A DNA stretch of 64,000 bases from Klenkia taihuensis (GTDB lineage Bacteria > Actinomycetota > Actinomycetes > Mycobacteriales > Geodermatophilaceae), in assembly GCF_900112525.1 (NCBI RefSeq), contig NZ_FOMD01000001.1:372001-436000 (forward strand), given 5' to 3'. A model generated the notes under the pieces. The model had not been told where the DNA came from, did no database searches, and saw only the letters and a program-made list of their open reading frames with translations. The position numbers were made by a program, and so were the translations under genes. Position 1 is the first letter of the stretch. Each line of letters begins with the position of its first letter. Positions 11,128 to 42,950 of the stretch are shown here, one piece after another.

Positions 11128-11160
11128 CGACGGGGGTTCCTCGTGGGTGGGGGACGGGCT

Positions 11161-38292: not shown

Positions 38293-39177
38293 TCAGCCCG
38301 GCAGCAGCACCGTGCGCAGCTCGTGCGCGCCGTCGGGGCGGGTGATCTCGTAGAACCAGCGGACGTCGCCGCCGGGCAGCGGCACCGCGTCGGCGTACCG
38401 CAGGCCGCCGTCGGGCCCCTGCAGGTGCGGGCCGCCGGGCAGCGCCGTCCACCCGTCCCCGTCGCGGACGGCGACCCCGGTGCGCTCCTCCCAGTTCTCC
38501 GCCGCGCTGGCCCGCCCGTCGTAGAGGGCGAAGCCGTCGAGCACGGCGGTGAACCGGACGCCGCGGGCGTCCCACCCGCCCGGCGTCCCGGTCAGCGAGG
38601 TGCCCGCCCACGTCCAGGCGACGCCGTCGGCGCTGACCGCGTGCTCGGTGGTCATCCGGTCGGTGGCGTCGGGGTCGTCGAGCGGGTGCACCGAGGCCCA
38701 CAGGTGCCAGCGCGCCCCGTCGTGCCGGATGACCGGGTCCTTGACCGCCGACCCCGGCACCGGGCCCGAGGCGAGCACGGTGCGCGCGGGGGCGCCGGCG
38801 AGCTCCTCGGGGCGGGCGGCCTCCAGCAGGTCGACCCGCCAGTGCGTGGTGCCCGGTGTCGCGCAGCTGACGTAGAGCCGCCACCGGCCCTCGGGGGTGC
38901 GCACCAGCGCCGGGCGCTCGAGGGAGTCGCAGGCGAAGGACTCCCGCCGCACCGTCGCCACCGGGGTGAAGTGCACGCCGTCGGCGGAGCGGCCCACCAC
39001 GTTGGCGAACCCGCGGCCCTCGCCGACGGGGCGGCGCAGCCGCCAGGCCAGCCACCAGGTGCCGTCGACGAACTGCGCGCTCGGCCCGCCGGCCCACGAG
39101 CCGGGCCGGGGGTCCTCGGGGGCCGCGACCAGCTCGGCGTCGGCGAGGAACCGGTCGACGTCCAGGGGCAGCGTCAC
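38293..39177 (-). CDS. Beta-propeller glycosidase-like protein, coupled to a sulfotransferase
   Basis: The 294-residue protein has the repeated blade pattern of GH43/GH32-like five-bladed propellers: GPSAQFVDGTWWLAWRL, ERPALVRTPEGRWRLYVSCA, VKDPVIRHDGARWHLWASVHP. Acidic residues at blade starts (ERP, KDP) resemble catalytic positions of GH43-type enzymes, but the set cannot be confirmed. No signal peptide, so probably cytoplasmic. GTG 39177 overlaps the sulfotransferase stop (GTGA), so the two are translated together, which suggests a shared sugar or sulfated-glycan pathway. Confidence 0.7.
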   Translation of the reverse strand: MTLPLDVDRFLADAELVAAPEDPRPGSWAGGPSAQFVDGTWWLAWRLRRPVGEGRGFANVVGRSADGVHFTPVATVRRESFACDSLERPALVRTPEGRWRLYVSCATPGTTHWRVDLLEAARPEELAGAPARTVLASGPVPGSAVKDPVIRHDGARWHLWASVHPLDDPDATDRMTTEHAVSADGVAWTWAGTSLTGTPGGWDARGVRFTAVLDGFALYDGRASAAENWEERTGVAVRDGDGWTALPGGPHLQGPDGGLRYADAVPLPGGDVRWFYEITRPDGAHELRTVLLPG

Positions 39178-40157
39178 GGGGCCGGGTCCGTCTCCCGGGC
39201 GGCGGCCCGGCTGGCGTAGTCCCCGCGCCCGGTGTCGGCCCGCCAGTCCGCGAAGGACTCCCCGGTGACCTCCTCGAGCAGCGCGACGTCGTCGAGCACC
39301 CGGTCCTGCACCGCCCGGCGCACCTCGACCGGCAGCGGCGGGCGGGCCGTCGCGCCGGCGTGCAGCGCGGCCAGCAGCGGCCGGCTCGCCTGCCGCCAGA
39401 CCTGCGGCGGCACGTGCGCGCCCGCGGCGGCCCCGGCCCGGGCCAGCCGGGCCAGCGCGCGGTACCGCGGGGTGTCGGCCACGTAGGGCTTGACGTTCTC
39501 CGGCGGGACGGCGCGGGCCACCCCGGTGCGCACCCCGAGGAACTCGCTCACCCGGTCCAGGGTGCGGGCCTGCTCGGAGACCACCTCGCGGAACCGGAGC
39601 AGCAGCAGCTGCTCGCGGGGGAGCAGCGTCAGCAGGTGCTGCAGCTGCTCGCCGTAGCGGCCCATCCGGGTGTAGTGCCAGAACGGCGCCCAGCCGTCGG
39701 CCACCCGCCGGTCCTCCAGCTCGACGGCCCGGCCGAAGTCGGCCTCGGGCTCCAGGCCGTCGGCGCGCAGGTGCACCCAGTTCGACAGCGCCCGGTCGAC
39801 CGGGTCGCGCACCACCGCGACCACCTTGACGTCGGGGACGTCGGCGACCAGCCGGCGCTGGGCGGCGAGGTCGTGGAGGTAGAACGGCGTGCTCTCCCCG
39901 CGGACGGCGTCGGCCGGCGCGCGGTCGAACAGCGCCAGGTAGCGGTCCCGCCGCCACACCCACTCCCGGGCGCTGTGCGCGTCCCCGGGACCGCGCTGGG
40001 TGCGGGCCGGGGGCGGGCGGCCGTCGGTCAGGTAGAACTTCGGCTCCTTGACCGGGGACAGGTACAGCTGCGGGTGGGTGGCCAGCGCGGCGTGCAGGGC
40101 CGTCGTGCCGGCCTTGGGGGCGCCGGCGAGGACGAACTGCGGCAGCCGGTCGGTCAC
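39174..40157 (-). CDS. PAPS-dependent sulfotransferase
   Basis: The 327-residue protein has the PAPS 5'-phosphosulfate loop FVLAGAPKAGTTALHAAL at about residues 7-24 and the 3'-phosphate motif VVRDPVDRALSNWVHL at about 118-133. This is the heparan N-deacetylase/sulfotransferase-like bacterial group acting on carbohydrates or lipids. YLSPVKEPKFYLTD is typical. GTG 40157 places the loop at the expected distance from the N-terminus. It is co-translated with the propeller protein downstream. Confidence 0.88.
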   Translation of the reverse strand: MTDRLPQFVLAGAPKAGTTALHAALATHPQLYLSPVKEPKFYLTDGRPPPARTQRGPGDAHSAREWVWRRDRYLALFDRAPADAVRGESTPFYLHDLAAQRRLVADVPDVKVVAVVRDPVDRALSNWVHLRADGLEPEADFGRAVELEDRRVADGWAPFWHYTRMGRYGEQLQHLLTLLPREQLLLLRFREVVSEQARTLDRVSEFLGVRTGVARAVPPENVKPYVADTPRYRALARLARAGAAAGAHVPPQVWRQASRPLLAALHAGATARPPLPVEVRRAVQDRVLDDVALLEEVTGESFADWRADTGRGDYASRAAARETDPAP

Positions 40158-40298
40158 GGGTGCATGCCTACCATCCCTACCGGCTTGGTGATGAATGCTG
40201 ATCCCCGCGCCGTCGAACCCGCGCCCCGAGGCGTGCTCCGGGTTCTGGTTCATCGGCCGACCGGGCCTGAGCCCTTCGTCACAGCTGGTGCACCGAAG

Positions 40299-40328
40299 TT
40301 GTAGAGAGTGCACCCAGGTGGGCACGAT
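40299..40328 (+). promoter_or_regulatory. Promoter for the metNIQ leader
   Basis: TTGTAG (40299-40304) and CACGAT (40323-40328) are separated by 18 bases. The -10 ends 6 bases before the GTG of the leader peptide at 40335. This is the main signal in the 305-base gap 40158-40462, which otherwise holds the leader peptide, the hairpins and the sulfotransferase promoter region. Confidence 0.5.
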
Positions 40329-40334
40329 GGCCGG

Positions 40335-40406
40335 GTGACCCGGCTGCTCCTGACGCGCGACCGCGCCGTCGACCACGCCGGCACCGCCAGTTCCCTCTGT
40401 CGCTGA
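40335..40406 (+). CDS. Putative leader peptide upstream of metNIQ
   Basis: A 23-codon reading frame beginning MTRLLLTRDRAVD and ending TASSLCR. The pattern LL-x-R-x-x-VD-...-S-LCR matches the short actinobacterial leader peptides found before sulfur and amino-acid genes in Streptomyces and mycobacteria. Translation of its near-terminal Cys codon (UGU) could sense cysteinyl-tRNA. The GTG is directly after a -10 box, so the peptide would be made from a leaderless message. It ends 56 bases before metN. Confidence 0.6.
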   Translation: MTRLLLTRDRAVDHAGTASSLCR

Positions 40407-40420
40407 CGACGCCGTCCTGC

Positions 40421-40456
40421 CGAGGAACCCCCTCGCACCCGTCGCCTGCCCCGAGG
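40421..40456 (+). promoter_or_regulatory. Mutually exclusive hairpins in the metN leader (attenuator candidate)
   Basis: CGAGGAACCCC occurs twice, at 40421-40431 and 40452-40462. CCTCG (40431-40435) can pair with the first CGAGG (loop of 5) or with the second CGAGG (40452-40456), which contains the ribosome site of metN. Ribosome position on the leader peptide could decide which forms, and so whether metN is translated. Confidence 0.45.
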
Positions 40457-40462
40457 AACCCC

Positions 40463-41458
40463 GTGATCGAGCTGAACCACGTCCGCAAGGTCTTCCCGGG
40501 CCGCCGCGGCGGTGCCGACGTCGTCGCCCTGGACGGCGTCGACCTCGCCGTCCCGGCCGGTGACTTCGCCGGCGTCGTGGGCCCCTCGGGCTCGGGCAAG
40601 AGCACCCTCATCCGGCTGGTCAACCTGCTGGAGCGGCCCACGTCCGGGTCGGTGGCCGTCGACGGCCGGGTGCTCACCGACCTGCCGGCCGACCAGGTCC
40701 GGCAGGCGCGCAGCTCCATCGGGATGGTCTTCCAGCACTTCGAGCTGATGGACTCCCGCACCGCGGCCGAGAACGTCGAGCACCCGCTGGAGCTGGCCGG
40801 CGTCGGCCGGGCCGAGCGCCGCCGCCGGTCGGCCGACCTGCTGGACCTGGTCGGGCTGGCCGAGCGCGCCGGTGCCCGGCCGCGGCAGCTGTCCGGTGGG
40901 CAGAAGCAGCGCGTGGCGATCGCCCGCGCACTGGCCGCCCGGCCGCAGGTGCTGCTGTGCGACGAGGCCACCTCCGCGCTCGACCAGGCCAGCACCACCG
41001 GCGTGCTCGAGCTGCTGCGCCGGGTGCGCGACGAGCTCGGCCTCACCGTGCTGCTGATCACCCACGAGATGGCCGTGGTGAAGGCGGTCTGCGACTCCGC
41101 CGTCCTGCTGGAGGCCGGCCGGGTCGTCGACGGCGGCCGGCTGGACGACGTCCTCACCCGGGACGACTCCCCGCTCGCCGCGGCGCTGCTGCCGGCCCCG
41201 GTGGCCGACGACCGCGTCGCCGGCACCCTGCTGCGGGTCACCGTCACCGAGACCGCGCCGGAGGCCGACGTGCTGCGGGTGCTGGTCGGCCGGCTCGGCC
41301 TCGCGGTCGAGGTGGCCGGCGGCTCGGTGGAGACCGTGGCCGGCGGCCGGCACGGCCGGCTGCTGCTGCGGATCACCGACGGCGACCTGTCCGGCCTGGA
41401 CACCGCGCTGACCCGGCTGCGCGCCGAGGGCTCGAAGGTCGAGCGGGTGGCGGCATGA
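40463..41458 (+). CDS. metN: Methionine ABC transporter ATP-binding protein
   Basis: The 331-residue protein has Walker A GPSGSGKST, signature LSGGQKQR, Walker B VLLCDEATSALD and switch His in ITHEMAVV. After about residue 250 is the NIL domain (LRVTVTETAPEADVLRVLVGRLGLAVEVAGG) that binds methionine to inhibit the transporter. It drives uptake of methionine by MetNIQ. GTG 40463 has GAGGA six bases upstream. metI follows with an ATGA overlap. Confidence 0.93.
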   Translation: MIELNHVRKVFPGRRGGADVVALDGVDLAVPAGDFAGVVGPSGSGKSTLIRLVNLLERPTSGSVAVDGRVLTDLPADQVRQARSSIGMVFQHFELMDSRTAAENVEHPLELAGVGRAERRRRSADLLDLVGLAERAGARPRQLSGGQKQRVAIARALAARPQVLLCDEATSALDQASTTGVLELLRRVRDELGLTVLLITHEMAVVKAVCDSAVLLEAGRVVDGGRLDDVLTRDDSPLAAALLPAPVADDRVAGTLLRVTVTETAPEADVLRVLVGRLGLAVEVAGGSVETVAGGRHGRLLLRITDGDLSGLDTALTRLRAEGSKVERVAA

Positions 41459-42114
41459 GCGACTGGTCCCGGATCGCCCCGCAGCTGGCCGACGCCACCG
41501 GCGAGACCCTCTACATGGTCGCGGTCTCGGCCGCGCTCACCGTGCTGGCGGGCATCCCGCTCGGCGTCCTGCTCATCGTCACCGCCCCCGACGGGCTGGC
41601 CCCGCACCGCTGGACCCACCGGGTCCTCGGCCTGCTGGTCAACCTCGGCCGGTCGCTGCCCTTCATCATCCTGCTGGTCCTGGTCGCACCGGTGACCCGC
41701 GGTCTGGTCGGCACCACCATCGGCTCCACCGCGGCCATCGTGCCGCTGACCATCGGCGCCGTCCCGTTCCTGGCCCGGCTGGTGGAGACCTCGCTGCGCG
41801 AGGTGTCGCACGGCAAGGTCGAGGCCGCGCTGGCCATGGGCGCCCGGCGCCGGCAGGTGGTGCGCACCGTGCTGCTGCCCGAGGCGCTGCCCTCGCTGGT
41901 CGCCGGCGTCACCGTCACCGTCGTCGCGCTGATCAGCTACTCCGCCATGGCCGGCGCGATCGGCGGCGGCGGGCTCGGCGACTTCGCCATCCGGTTCGGG
42001 TACCAGCAATTCCGCACCGACATCACCCTGCTCACCGTCGTCCTGCTGCTCGTCGTCGTCCAGGCGCTGCAGTTCGGCGGCGACACCTGGGCGCGCCGCC
42101 TGGCGCGCCGCTGA
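41455..42114 (+). CDS. metI: Methionine ABC transporter permease
   Basis: A 219-residue permease with five helices. GETLYMVAVSAALTVLAGIPLG at the start, NLGRSLPFIILLV, EAA loop VEAALAMGARRRQVVRTVLLPEALP, and the MetI-specific end SAMAGAIGGGGLGDFAIRFGYQ. The ATG at 41455 overlaps the metN stop. It forms the channel of MetNIQ. Confidence 0.93.
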   Translation: MSDWSRIAPQLADATGETLYMVAVSAALTVLAGIPLGVLLIVTAPDGLAPHRWTHRVLGLLVNLGRSLPFIILLVLVAPVTRGLVGTTIGSTAAIVPLTIGAVPFLARLVETSLREVSHGKVEAALAMGARRRQVVRTVLLPEALPSLVAGVTVTVVALISYSAMAGAIGGGGLGDFAIRFGYQQFRTDITLLTVVLLLVVVQALQFGGDTWARRLARR

Positions 42115-42134: not shown

Positions 42135-42950
42135 GTGCGACGCCTCGCCCTCACCCTGTCCGCCCTCACCGCCACCGCCGTCCTGGCGGCCTGCGGTGGC
42201 GGGGACGCCGAGCTGTCGGCGGCCGACGAGCCGCTGCGCGTCGGCGCCTCGCCCGTGCCGCACGCCGAGATCCTGCGGTTCATCGACGAGAACCTCGCCG
42301 AGGACGCCGGGCTGGACCTCGACGTCGTGGAGTTCACCGACTACGTGCAGCCCAACGTGGCCCTCGACGACGGTTCGCTCGACGCCAACTTCTTCCAGAC
42401 GATCCCCTACCTGGAGGAGCAGGAGGCCAGCGCCGGCTACGACTTCACCGCGCTGGAGCCGGTGCACATCGAGCCGCTGGGCATCTACTCCGACAGCCTC
42501 ACCGACCTCGCCGACCTGCCCGACGGCGGCACGGTGGCCATCCCGAACGACCCGACCAACGCCGCCCGCGCGCTGCGGCTGCTCGAGTCCGCCGACCTGA
42601 TCACCCTGGCCGACACCGGTGACGCCGCGCCGACCTCGCTGGACGTCGAGGAGAACCCGAAGGACCTGGAGATCTCCGAGGTCGAGGCGGCCCAGGTGCC
42701 CCGCTCGCTGGCCGACGTCGACATCGCCGTCATCAACGGCAACTACGCCATCGACGCCGACCTCTCCCCGGCCGAGGACGCCCTCGCGCTGGAGGACGCC
42801 GAGGGCAACCCCAACGCCAACCTGCTCGTGGTGCGGGCCGGCGACGAGGGCGACGAGCGCATCGCCACCCTGGAGGAGCTGCTGCACTCCGACGAGGTGC
42901 GCCGGTACATCGAGGACGAGTACGACGGCGCGGTGCTCCCCGCCTTCTGA
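42135..42950 (+). CDS. metQ: Methionine-binding lipoprotein
   Basis: The 271-residue NlpA-family protein has a lipobox VLAAC with Cys20. The mature part has LRVGASPVPHAEILRFI, DYVQPNVALDDGSLDANFFQ, VAIPNDPTNAARALRLL and INGNYAIDADL, the MetQ pattern. Start GTG 42135, 20 bases after metI. It captures methionine outside the membrane. Confidence 0.93.
   Translation: MRRLALTLSALTATAVLAACGGGDAELSAADEPLRVGASPVPHAEILRFIDENLAEDAGLDLDVVEFTDYVQPNVALDDGSLDANFFQTIPYLEEQEASAGYDFTALEPVHIEPLGIYSDSLTDLADLPDGGTVAIPNDPTNAARALRLLESADLITLADTGDAAPTSLDVEENPKDLEISEVEAAQVPRSLADVDIAVINGNYAIDADLSPAEDALALEDAEGNPNANLLVVRAGDEGDERIATLEELLHSDEVRRYIEDEYDGAVLPAF

Follow-up and report, generated by a model that had tools for sequence, protein, structure and literature searches.

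A putative cysteine-responsive leader peptide upstream of metNIQ in Klenkia taihuensis and its relatives

The metNIQ locus and its leader frame

The window examined here, a 64,000-nucleotide stretch of a Klenkia taihuensis (Geodermatophilaceae) contig, carries genes for a methionine ABC transporter (metNIQ) preceded by promoter-like elements and a short open reading frame. The features at the locus, in window coordinates, are as follows.

40299..40304, + strand: -35-like element TTGTAG, 18 bases 5' of the -10-like element (sequence)
40323..40328, + strand: -10-like element CACGAT, ending 6 bases 5' of the leader GTG, a leaderless-type start (sequence; hexamer in relatives)
40335..40406, + strand: leader ORF, VTRLLLTRDRAVDHAGTASSLCR and stop (sequence; core kept in relatives; recovered again by profile)
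40389..40397, + strand: AGUUCCCUC, directly 5' of UGU, predicted partner of the metN Shine-Dalgarno (SD) region (folding model)
40398..40400, + strand: UGU at codon 22 (Cys), the proposed sensor, at +9 from the invariant Asp (codon counts)
40407..40450, + strand: spacer from leader stop to metN SD, rich in C and poor in G (0.52 and 0.25 over 44 nt), a possible site of Rho loading
40420..40431, + strand: CCGAGGAACCCC, first copy of a 12-base repeat (repeat search)
40431..40435, + strand: CCTCG, which could pair with either CGAGG copy (sequence; 0/4 same-genus relatives)
40451..40462, + strand: CCGAGGAACCCC, second copy, holding the metN SD (GAGG, 40453-40456; repeat search)
40463..41458, + strand: metN, methionine ABC transporter ATPase with NIL domain (MetN/NIL models)
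41455..42114, + strand: metI, permease (BPD_transp_1 model)
42135..42950, + strand: metQ, NlpA/MetQ lipoprotein (NlpA/MetQ model)

Pfam scores of the metNIQ products for ABC_tran, NIL, BPD_transp_1, and Lipoprotein_9 are above the cut-offs of those models, and their NCBIfam scores are below the curated cut-offs. Upstream of metN the order is TTGTAG-N18-CACGAT-N6-GTG (40299-40337), a 23-codon frame running from GTG at 40335 to TGA at 40404-40406 with a C-terminal L-C-R, and 56 further bases. The frame, its ending, and a promoter six bases before the GTG had all been pointed out in a preliminary description of this DNA, and we read them in the same way. The motif TTGT[AG]G is present also in all four same-genus relatives (read by eye). 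A consensus promoter scan listed no promoter at the leader, and the site is weak by E. coli standards. A 32-amino-acid frame would result from an in-frame GTG at 40308, as in the ORF reading of the window; the promoter position and the relatives favor the start at 40335. An imperfect direct repeat, GTGCACC[GC]A[AG]GT, lies at 40288-40299 and 40308-40319, 20 bases apart and flanking the -35-like element, and is a possible regulator site. No Rfam riboswitch family matched the region 39000-41500, even at E up to 5. The earlier statement that no riboswitch was in sight therefore holds for this metN, and fails for several relatives, described below.

Conservation of the leader upstream of metN

A MetN search of 112 same-family genomes gave matches in 41 at E ≤ 1e-75, the genome of the window included; the other 71 were left out at this threshold and may carry more distant MetN proteins. 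The peptide core is present upstream of metN in 39 of the 41 genomes, 38 identified by a script whose core pattern was written after the sequences had been viewed and one (L046) by eye, with Val where the pattern required Ala or His and UGA at the +9 codon. At L013 a contig end cuts the region just upstream of GTVLCR and the stop, and L018 has a deletion inside the leader.

The leaderless-type start proposed in the preliminary description gains support from the relatives. A NANNNT hexamer lies 6-7 bases 5' of the GTG or ATG in 29 of the 38 scripted metN leaders, which are all 29 without a SAM-I aptamer, the window included; the test is a loose one, with 8-13% at shifted positions. The remaining nine have GGAGG before ATG or GTG and no NANNNT hexamer.

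The codon at +9 in the 38 scripted leaders is UGU in 21, UGC in 3, UAG in 12, and UGA in 2; together with the UGA found by eye, a stop thus stands at the Cys position in 15 of 39 metN leaders. Core pN/pS, from pairwise counts over 16 codons of related sequences, is 0.215 in the stop group, 0.39 in the SAM group, 0.22 in g4, 0.24 in g9, and 0.71 in the genus of the window (5 sequences). These within-group values suggest that the stop variants keep the core under purifying selection, and they are therefore probably not products of simple decay. Frames ending in MIDRC or MIGGCCGVVC in the g2 and g3 relatives, considered as a second kind of leader, were rejected as the promoter region read in another frame; the true leader of these relatives lies 3' of them and ends at a stop replacing Cys.

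A wider family of sulfur leaders

When the metN-leader profile was run on the genome of the window, it recovered five further copies at E up to 0.13, besides weaker matches. They precede genes for NAD_binding_9 (FAD-NAD(P)-binding), DUF4395 plus rhodanese, TauE/SafE, and NIR_SIR (sulfite reductase) proteins, assigned by Pfam; the fifth copy is L054. A broader profile (A2) matched, at E ≤ 0.001, 116 genomes out of 148 in the class and 111 out of 112 in the family; its reversed version matched none of the 148 class genomes. We examined 89 class loci, 29 supplied automatically (a duplicate of L052 having been dropped) and 60 chosen down the listed ranking. The proteins behind the 89 leaders include rhodanese (35), DUF4395 (10), SDF (sodium:dicarboxylate symporter, 8), PALP (PLP enzymes, 8), FMN_red (5), NIR_SIR (3), and single Cys_Met_Meta_PP and PAPS_reduct proteins, counts that are lower bounds from mechanical calling in which some frames are wrong. 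The kinship with Cys-Arg leaders of sulfur genes suggested in the preliminary description is supported, and the window leader, like other copies, stands directly before sulfur-metabolism genes, here metNIQ. The leader family also precedes 2-oxoacid:ferredoxin oxidoreductase genes (POR, 3 of the 89 loci: L079, L086, and L138), an unexpected target for a sulfur leader; at L050 (3501-3569) a leader lies before a protein that shares its N-terminus with POR-type proteins. A plasmid collection yielded two actinobacterial matches, with no annotation beneath either.

Promoter-like siting extends to the wider family. A -10-like hexamer lies 5-8 bases 5' of an in-frame start at 71 of the 89 class loci, and over all candidate starts of these loci and 23 metN leaders the hexamer rate is 96/236, compared with 1216/9400 and 522/6873 at shifted positions.

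Two NCBIfam models describe related peptides. Among 15 metN-locus peptides compared at E up to 10, NF042933 (the Ms5788A Cys-rich leader) matches 11 and NF042934 matches 10. For NF042934 (cut-off 27), the g9 type (29.0 bits) and L016 type (34.0 bits) score above the cut-off, and the L021 type (18.3 bits) and the stop type (L030, 24.8 bits) below it. This model has matches in 19 of 296 phylum genomes, of which 18 fall within the class of the window and the nineteenth is below cut-off, and none in 14 control genomes. NF042934 ("putative leader peptide", cis_reg_atten) is the known curated home of these leaders. A Cys-run ending such as LTKRRAVDLCRVAGCCCCCCSC before the stop occurs in 14 of 60 leaders of the second sample (described below), every one of them from a single family (f2) within the same order; a peptide of this type scores 47.3 bits against NF042933 (cut-off 45), and DUF4395 and rhodanese genes follow the Cys-run leader in all four loci examined.

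The window peptide itself is unmatched in Pfam and NCBIfam searches, shows no match to NF042933 or NF042934 at E up to 10, and is absent from the five NF042934 matches in its own genome (E up to 0.01). Because the models fail on it, we call it homologous by locus and core, and not a certified family member. With this qualification, the 23-codon frame is best read as a genuine regulatory leader peptide that is conserved and akin to the known actinobacterial cysteine leader peptides.

A near-obligatory UGU codon

To compare codon use, we counted codons at loci drawn with codon-blind protein profiles, numbering them from the invariant Asp (position 0). Of the 89 class loci, 88 have TGT at +9 and one has TGC, and Cys at +2 is encoded by TGC in 46 of 51 cases. 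Profile A2 includes the Cys column, so a further profile (A6) was built without the Cys and Arg columns; it matched 232 of 316 class genomes at E ≤ 0.003. Sixty A6 loci were fetched from the list, 57 from genomes new to the set and three (G160, G114, and G138) from earlier ones. In this sample the +9 codon is TGT in 58, TGA in one (L292), and GGG in one, and all 49 Cys residues at +2 are encoded by TGC. A further 29 A6 loci, which largely repeat the first sample (8 come from genomes outside it), have TGT at +9 in 29 of 29 and TGC at +2 in 19 of 21. With duplicates removed, the third base at +9 is fixed as T (1.7-1.9 bits) and other third bases favor C or G; the loci are related by descent and hence not independent draws. 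As background, UGU makes up 3 of 94 Cys codons in 64 of the 89 downstream ORFs, and the metN genes use it for none of their 83. UGC takes the place of UGU in three of 24 Cys-type metN leaders (L014, L017, and L019) and in one of the six leader copies in the genome of the window (L052).

Other positions are conserved as residues. Arg at -4 is found at 89 of 89 loci with five codons in use, Asp at 0 at 89 of 89, and Arg at +3 at 86 of 89; these peptide columns are inflated by profile selection, and the A6 result at +9 was not selected on its own column. The window copy departs from this pattern, with Asp at -4 and Gly at +3. Because the other conserved residues vary synonymously, the constraint lies on the codon at +9 and on the peptide at the other positions. 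One of two synonymous Cys codons is thus near-obligatory against the bias of the genome while a neighboring Cys uses the other, a hard constraint that needs a mechanism.

The preliminary description had left open whether the leader is linked to cysteine or methionine. Methionine as the sensed residue was rejected, there being no Met codon past the start in the window leader, and the codon evidence points to cysteine.

SAM-I aptamers in tandem with the leader

A SAM-I aptamer (RF00162) lies upstream of metN in 10 of the 41 genomes, and none was found around the metN of the window (39000-41500). The aptamer loci (L014-L020 and L025-L027) comprise the nine scripted leaders with GGAGG and L018. 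In all ten, the last five bases of the aptamer are the leader SD (GGAGG), 5-6 bases 5' of the start codon. Nine of the ten aptamers pass the Rfam gathering score; that of L020 has 44.4 bits against a gathering score of 44.4 and is absent from the gathering run and present in the E-value run. The other 31 loci gave no RF00162 match, some of them searched at the gathering threshold only and L013 with an upstream region too short to tell.

Since the end of the aptamer is the leader SD, SAM should turn off leader translation in these relatives, which would place two sulfur signals in series. At L018, 65 bases before metN, a frame read by eye runs from the riboswitch-controlled ATG to a TGA overlapping the metN GTG, and the deletion would couple the riboswitch directly to metN. 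In the riboswitch-controlled upstream ORFs of Mycobacterium tuberculosis (Mbox-rv1805A, PMC12810186; B12-uORF, PMC11260477) an aptamer likewise precedes a conserved small ORF; the arrangement in the relatives differs in that the aptamer is of the SAM-I class and includes the SD of a cysteine leader.

SAM-IV riboswitches occur on the opposite strand to a nearby leader copy at two places. One, at L052 (1294-1405, minus strand, 96.4 bits), belongs to the genome of the window (contig C5, about 755.3 kb); the other, in a same-genus relative (L012, 2867-2977, plus strand, 93.5 bits), lies ~380 bases from metN, which is on the other strand.

A model for control of metNIQ by cysteine supply

We propose that the frame is a cis-acting leader peptide tying metNIQ to cysteine supply, and we consider this full account probable; cysteine-responsive attenuation as such is likely. 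The GTG would stand at, or very close to, the 5' end of the mRNA, and 21 codons of the conserved peptide would be translated before the ribosome reached UGU. With plentiful Cys-tRNA it would pass, terminate, and depart, and metNIQ expression would stay low. With scarce Cys-tRNA it would wait on the slow, wobble-read UGU, a codon that may be the most starvation-sensitive choice, and metNIQ expression would rise, imported methionine acting as a sulfur source. The waiting ribosome could act on metN either by blocking pairing between the leader and the metN SD or by shielding the C-rich spacer from Rho. The sequences themselves show the conserved frame, its siting before metN and other sulfur genes, its promoter-like position, the near-fixed UGU, and conservation at the peptide level; we infer that the frame is translated, that the ribosome stalls, which way metNIQ responds, and how the stall reaches metN. 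Several observations speak against the account: the 15 stop-type leaders among 39 at metN, the lack of a conserved hairpin, SD release that is modeled in only 7 of 23 leaders, the UGC exceptions among metN leaders and in the genome of the window, the departures of the window copy at -4 and +3, and the failure of the NCBIfam models to match the window peptide.

Precedents for such control exist in the Actinobacteria. Poly-Cys leaderless ORFs are reported to be cysteine-responsive attenuators in M. smegmatis (Canestrari 2020, as related in passages of PMC9031893 and PMC13236596), and attenuation of cys operons had been proposed earlier (in parts of PMC1262725 and PMC4633059).

Of the two forms of coupling, termination by Rho has in our estimate close to an even chance. 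A leader translated to its stop would expose the spacer and transcription would end before metN, an outcome that a paused ribosome would prevent. The spacers of the 23 metN leaders have C 0.49 and G 0.31, compared with 0.33 and 0.38 upstream, and the 45 nt after the stop at 88 loci have C 0.45 and G 0.29, compared with 0.34 and 0.35 in the stretch before the leader (p 1e-12), a composition that fits Rho, although the reference is the promoter region and not ordinary 5' UTRs of the same genomes, and base composition alone is no proof of Rho sites. No intrinsic terminator or terminator-like hairpin was found in 40160-40500, where a classical transcription attenuator would have one. In the sections of the literature consulted, Rho was proposed for mycobacterial cys leaders as a weak prediction (PMC1262725), and a riboswitch-controlled upstream ORF with Rho termination was shown in M. 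tuberculosis (PMC12810186).

Occlusion of the metN SD, the translational attenuation favored in the preliminary description, is possible but in our view somewhat doubtful. In the folding model the window SD pairs with AGUUCCCUC beside the UGU, and its probability of being unpaired rises from 0.22 in the full RNA to 0.43 if the Cys codon is occupied by a ribosome. A gain of at least 0.06 is modeled in 7 of 23 metN leaders (the window, L017, and five of six g9 leaders), but the other 16 show none, and four of these (L009, L010, L026, and L027) lose at least 0.07; the model covered 23 leaders, L013, L018, L020, and the 15 stop-type leaders being left out. At L009 the main SD partner lies at the same place as AGUUCCCUC, but accessibility is predicted to fall with the ribosome. 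For the cysteine genes of M. smegmatis, PMC13236596 cites SD masking, and the pairing that a stalled ribosome would open is predicted for the window and six more leaders. Compared with shuffled sequences, structure is not in excess in the window leader (z 0.64), across the 23 metN leaders (mean z 0.13), or, for the 89 class leaders, over the 45 nt that begin at the Cys codon (mean z -0.03).

The preliminary description had based this occlusion on a repeat around CCTCG whose second copy holds the metN ribosome site. The repeat is present and extends to 12 bases (CCGAGGAACCCC), with its copies 31 bases apart between the leader stop and metN. Its 11-mer CGAGGAACCCC has three copies in the window, compared with 0.08 expected from shuffles; the third copy lies away from metN, at 11133-11143 on the minus strand. 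The competing CGAGG/CCTCG hairpins, however, were rejected as a conserved switch: neither CCTCG nor the 12-base repeat is found in the spacers of the four same-genus relatives (0/4 for each), and an excess of structure is lacking, as given above. The sole resemblance to the first hairpin, read by eye, is a GGGG-GAACG-CCCC hairpin at L010. The comparison of metN upstream regions that the description had proposed thus upheld the peptide and not the pairing.

The stop-type leaders bear on what the ribosome responds to. Plain tRNA starvation fails to explain them because their core stays under purifying selection, and the stop-codon variants with their conserved core suggest that the nascent chain matters too. 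Pressed further, this becomes an alternative in which the core arrests the ribosome once 21-22 codons have been read and something slow, either the wobble-read UGU or a stop, fills the A site; the signal would act on the arrest, with Cys-tRNA as one input or none. The conservation well beyond the Cys codon (inflated by profile selection, as noted), the single codon fixed at its third base against the general preference for C or G, the restriction of the metN codon to Cys or stop with a low pN/pS in the stop group, and the stop that recurs at the same codon in the 60-locus sample all agree with it. The window copy, however, does without two of the conserved Args, tRNA supply explains the Cys-run members, and the stop variants could be relics acting through translation alone; we consider this alternative rather unlikely. 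A combined form is offered as a tentative suggestion. In it the class-wide sulfur leaders would be codon-gated arrest peptides, and not plain counters of codons, with an R..VDL.R chain and a near-obligatory wobble-read UGU (or, in some lineages, a stop) at fixed distance; in those relatives whose leader lies under SAM-I, metNIQ would respond to SAM and cysteine in series. The leaders with a stop codon and those behind a SAM riboswitch amount to natural experiments, through which tRNA starvation might be told apart from arrest by the nascent chain. Finally, that the frame arose by chance or is non-functional is most improbable: it is short and missed by NCBIfam and Pfam, but it is kept in metN genomes, the reversed profile found nothing, and it combines purifying selection with a near-fixed rare codon.

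Relationship to known leader peptides

The leader family (curated), Cys-responsive attenuation, and a leaderless Streptomyces metNIQ leader with an unrelated peptide are already known. A literature search that covered few subscription journals returned no report of this leader family at metNIQ, of a near-obligatory UGU, of Cys-to-stop variants with a conserved core, or of SAM-I on a leader SD; for the fixed UGU and the SAM-leader tandem, such silence is weak evidence that they are unreported. The locus brings a methionine importer into a leader-peptide system that is very widespread among sulfur genes.

The closest systems are the NF042933 and NF042934 leaders and the mycobacterial poly-Cys leaderless ORFs, which share with the metN leaders what appears to be a leaderless-type start and a site before sulfur genes, and with the relatives the R..VDL.R..S.LC core. 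The -10-like hexamer 6 bases 5' of the window GTG, kept in relatives, would fit a leaderless start like that of the mycobacterial leaders. In contrast to these systems, the window peptide has one Cys codon (TGT) and not a run, and is sited before a methionine importer.

TnaC-type arrest peptides have a conserved nascent chain and act at a fixed last codon. The metN leaders resemble them in the conserved chain and the fixed last codon, a stop in some, but both a ligand and an arrest are hypothetical for the metN leaders, and most members have a Cys codon.

In the excerpts of PMC8632094 that we consulted, Cys codons in the uORFC-8-2 cysS leader of Rhodobacterales are likewise proposed for attenuation; that leader differs in its terminator stem, its structured motif, and the dominance of UGC, where the leaders described here have UGU.

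A leaderless leader before metNIQ has been reported from RNA-seq in S. lividans (passages of PMC8079986). This metL leader is, according to the same passages, also directly before metNIQ and Cys-containing, but its peptide (MTTTS...TPGARCMCRMCAF) is unrelated and has no VD core, and the window peptide does not show the metL sequence. A metL-like frame is present in all ten Streptomyces and Kitasatospora metN loci used, which were taken from 80 distant loci among the matches listed. The metL-type leaders of Streptomyces and Kitasatospora (L154-L156, L158, L163, L165, L170, L175, L212, and L219) also favor TGT: of the 26 Cys codons within the final ten positions of these leaders, 19 are TGT.
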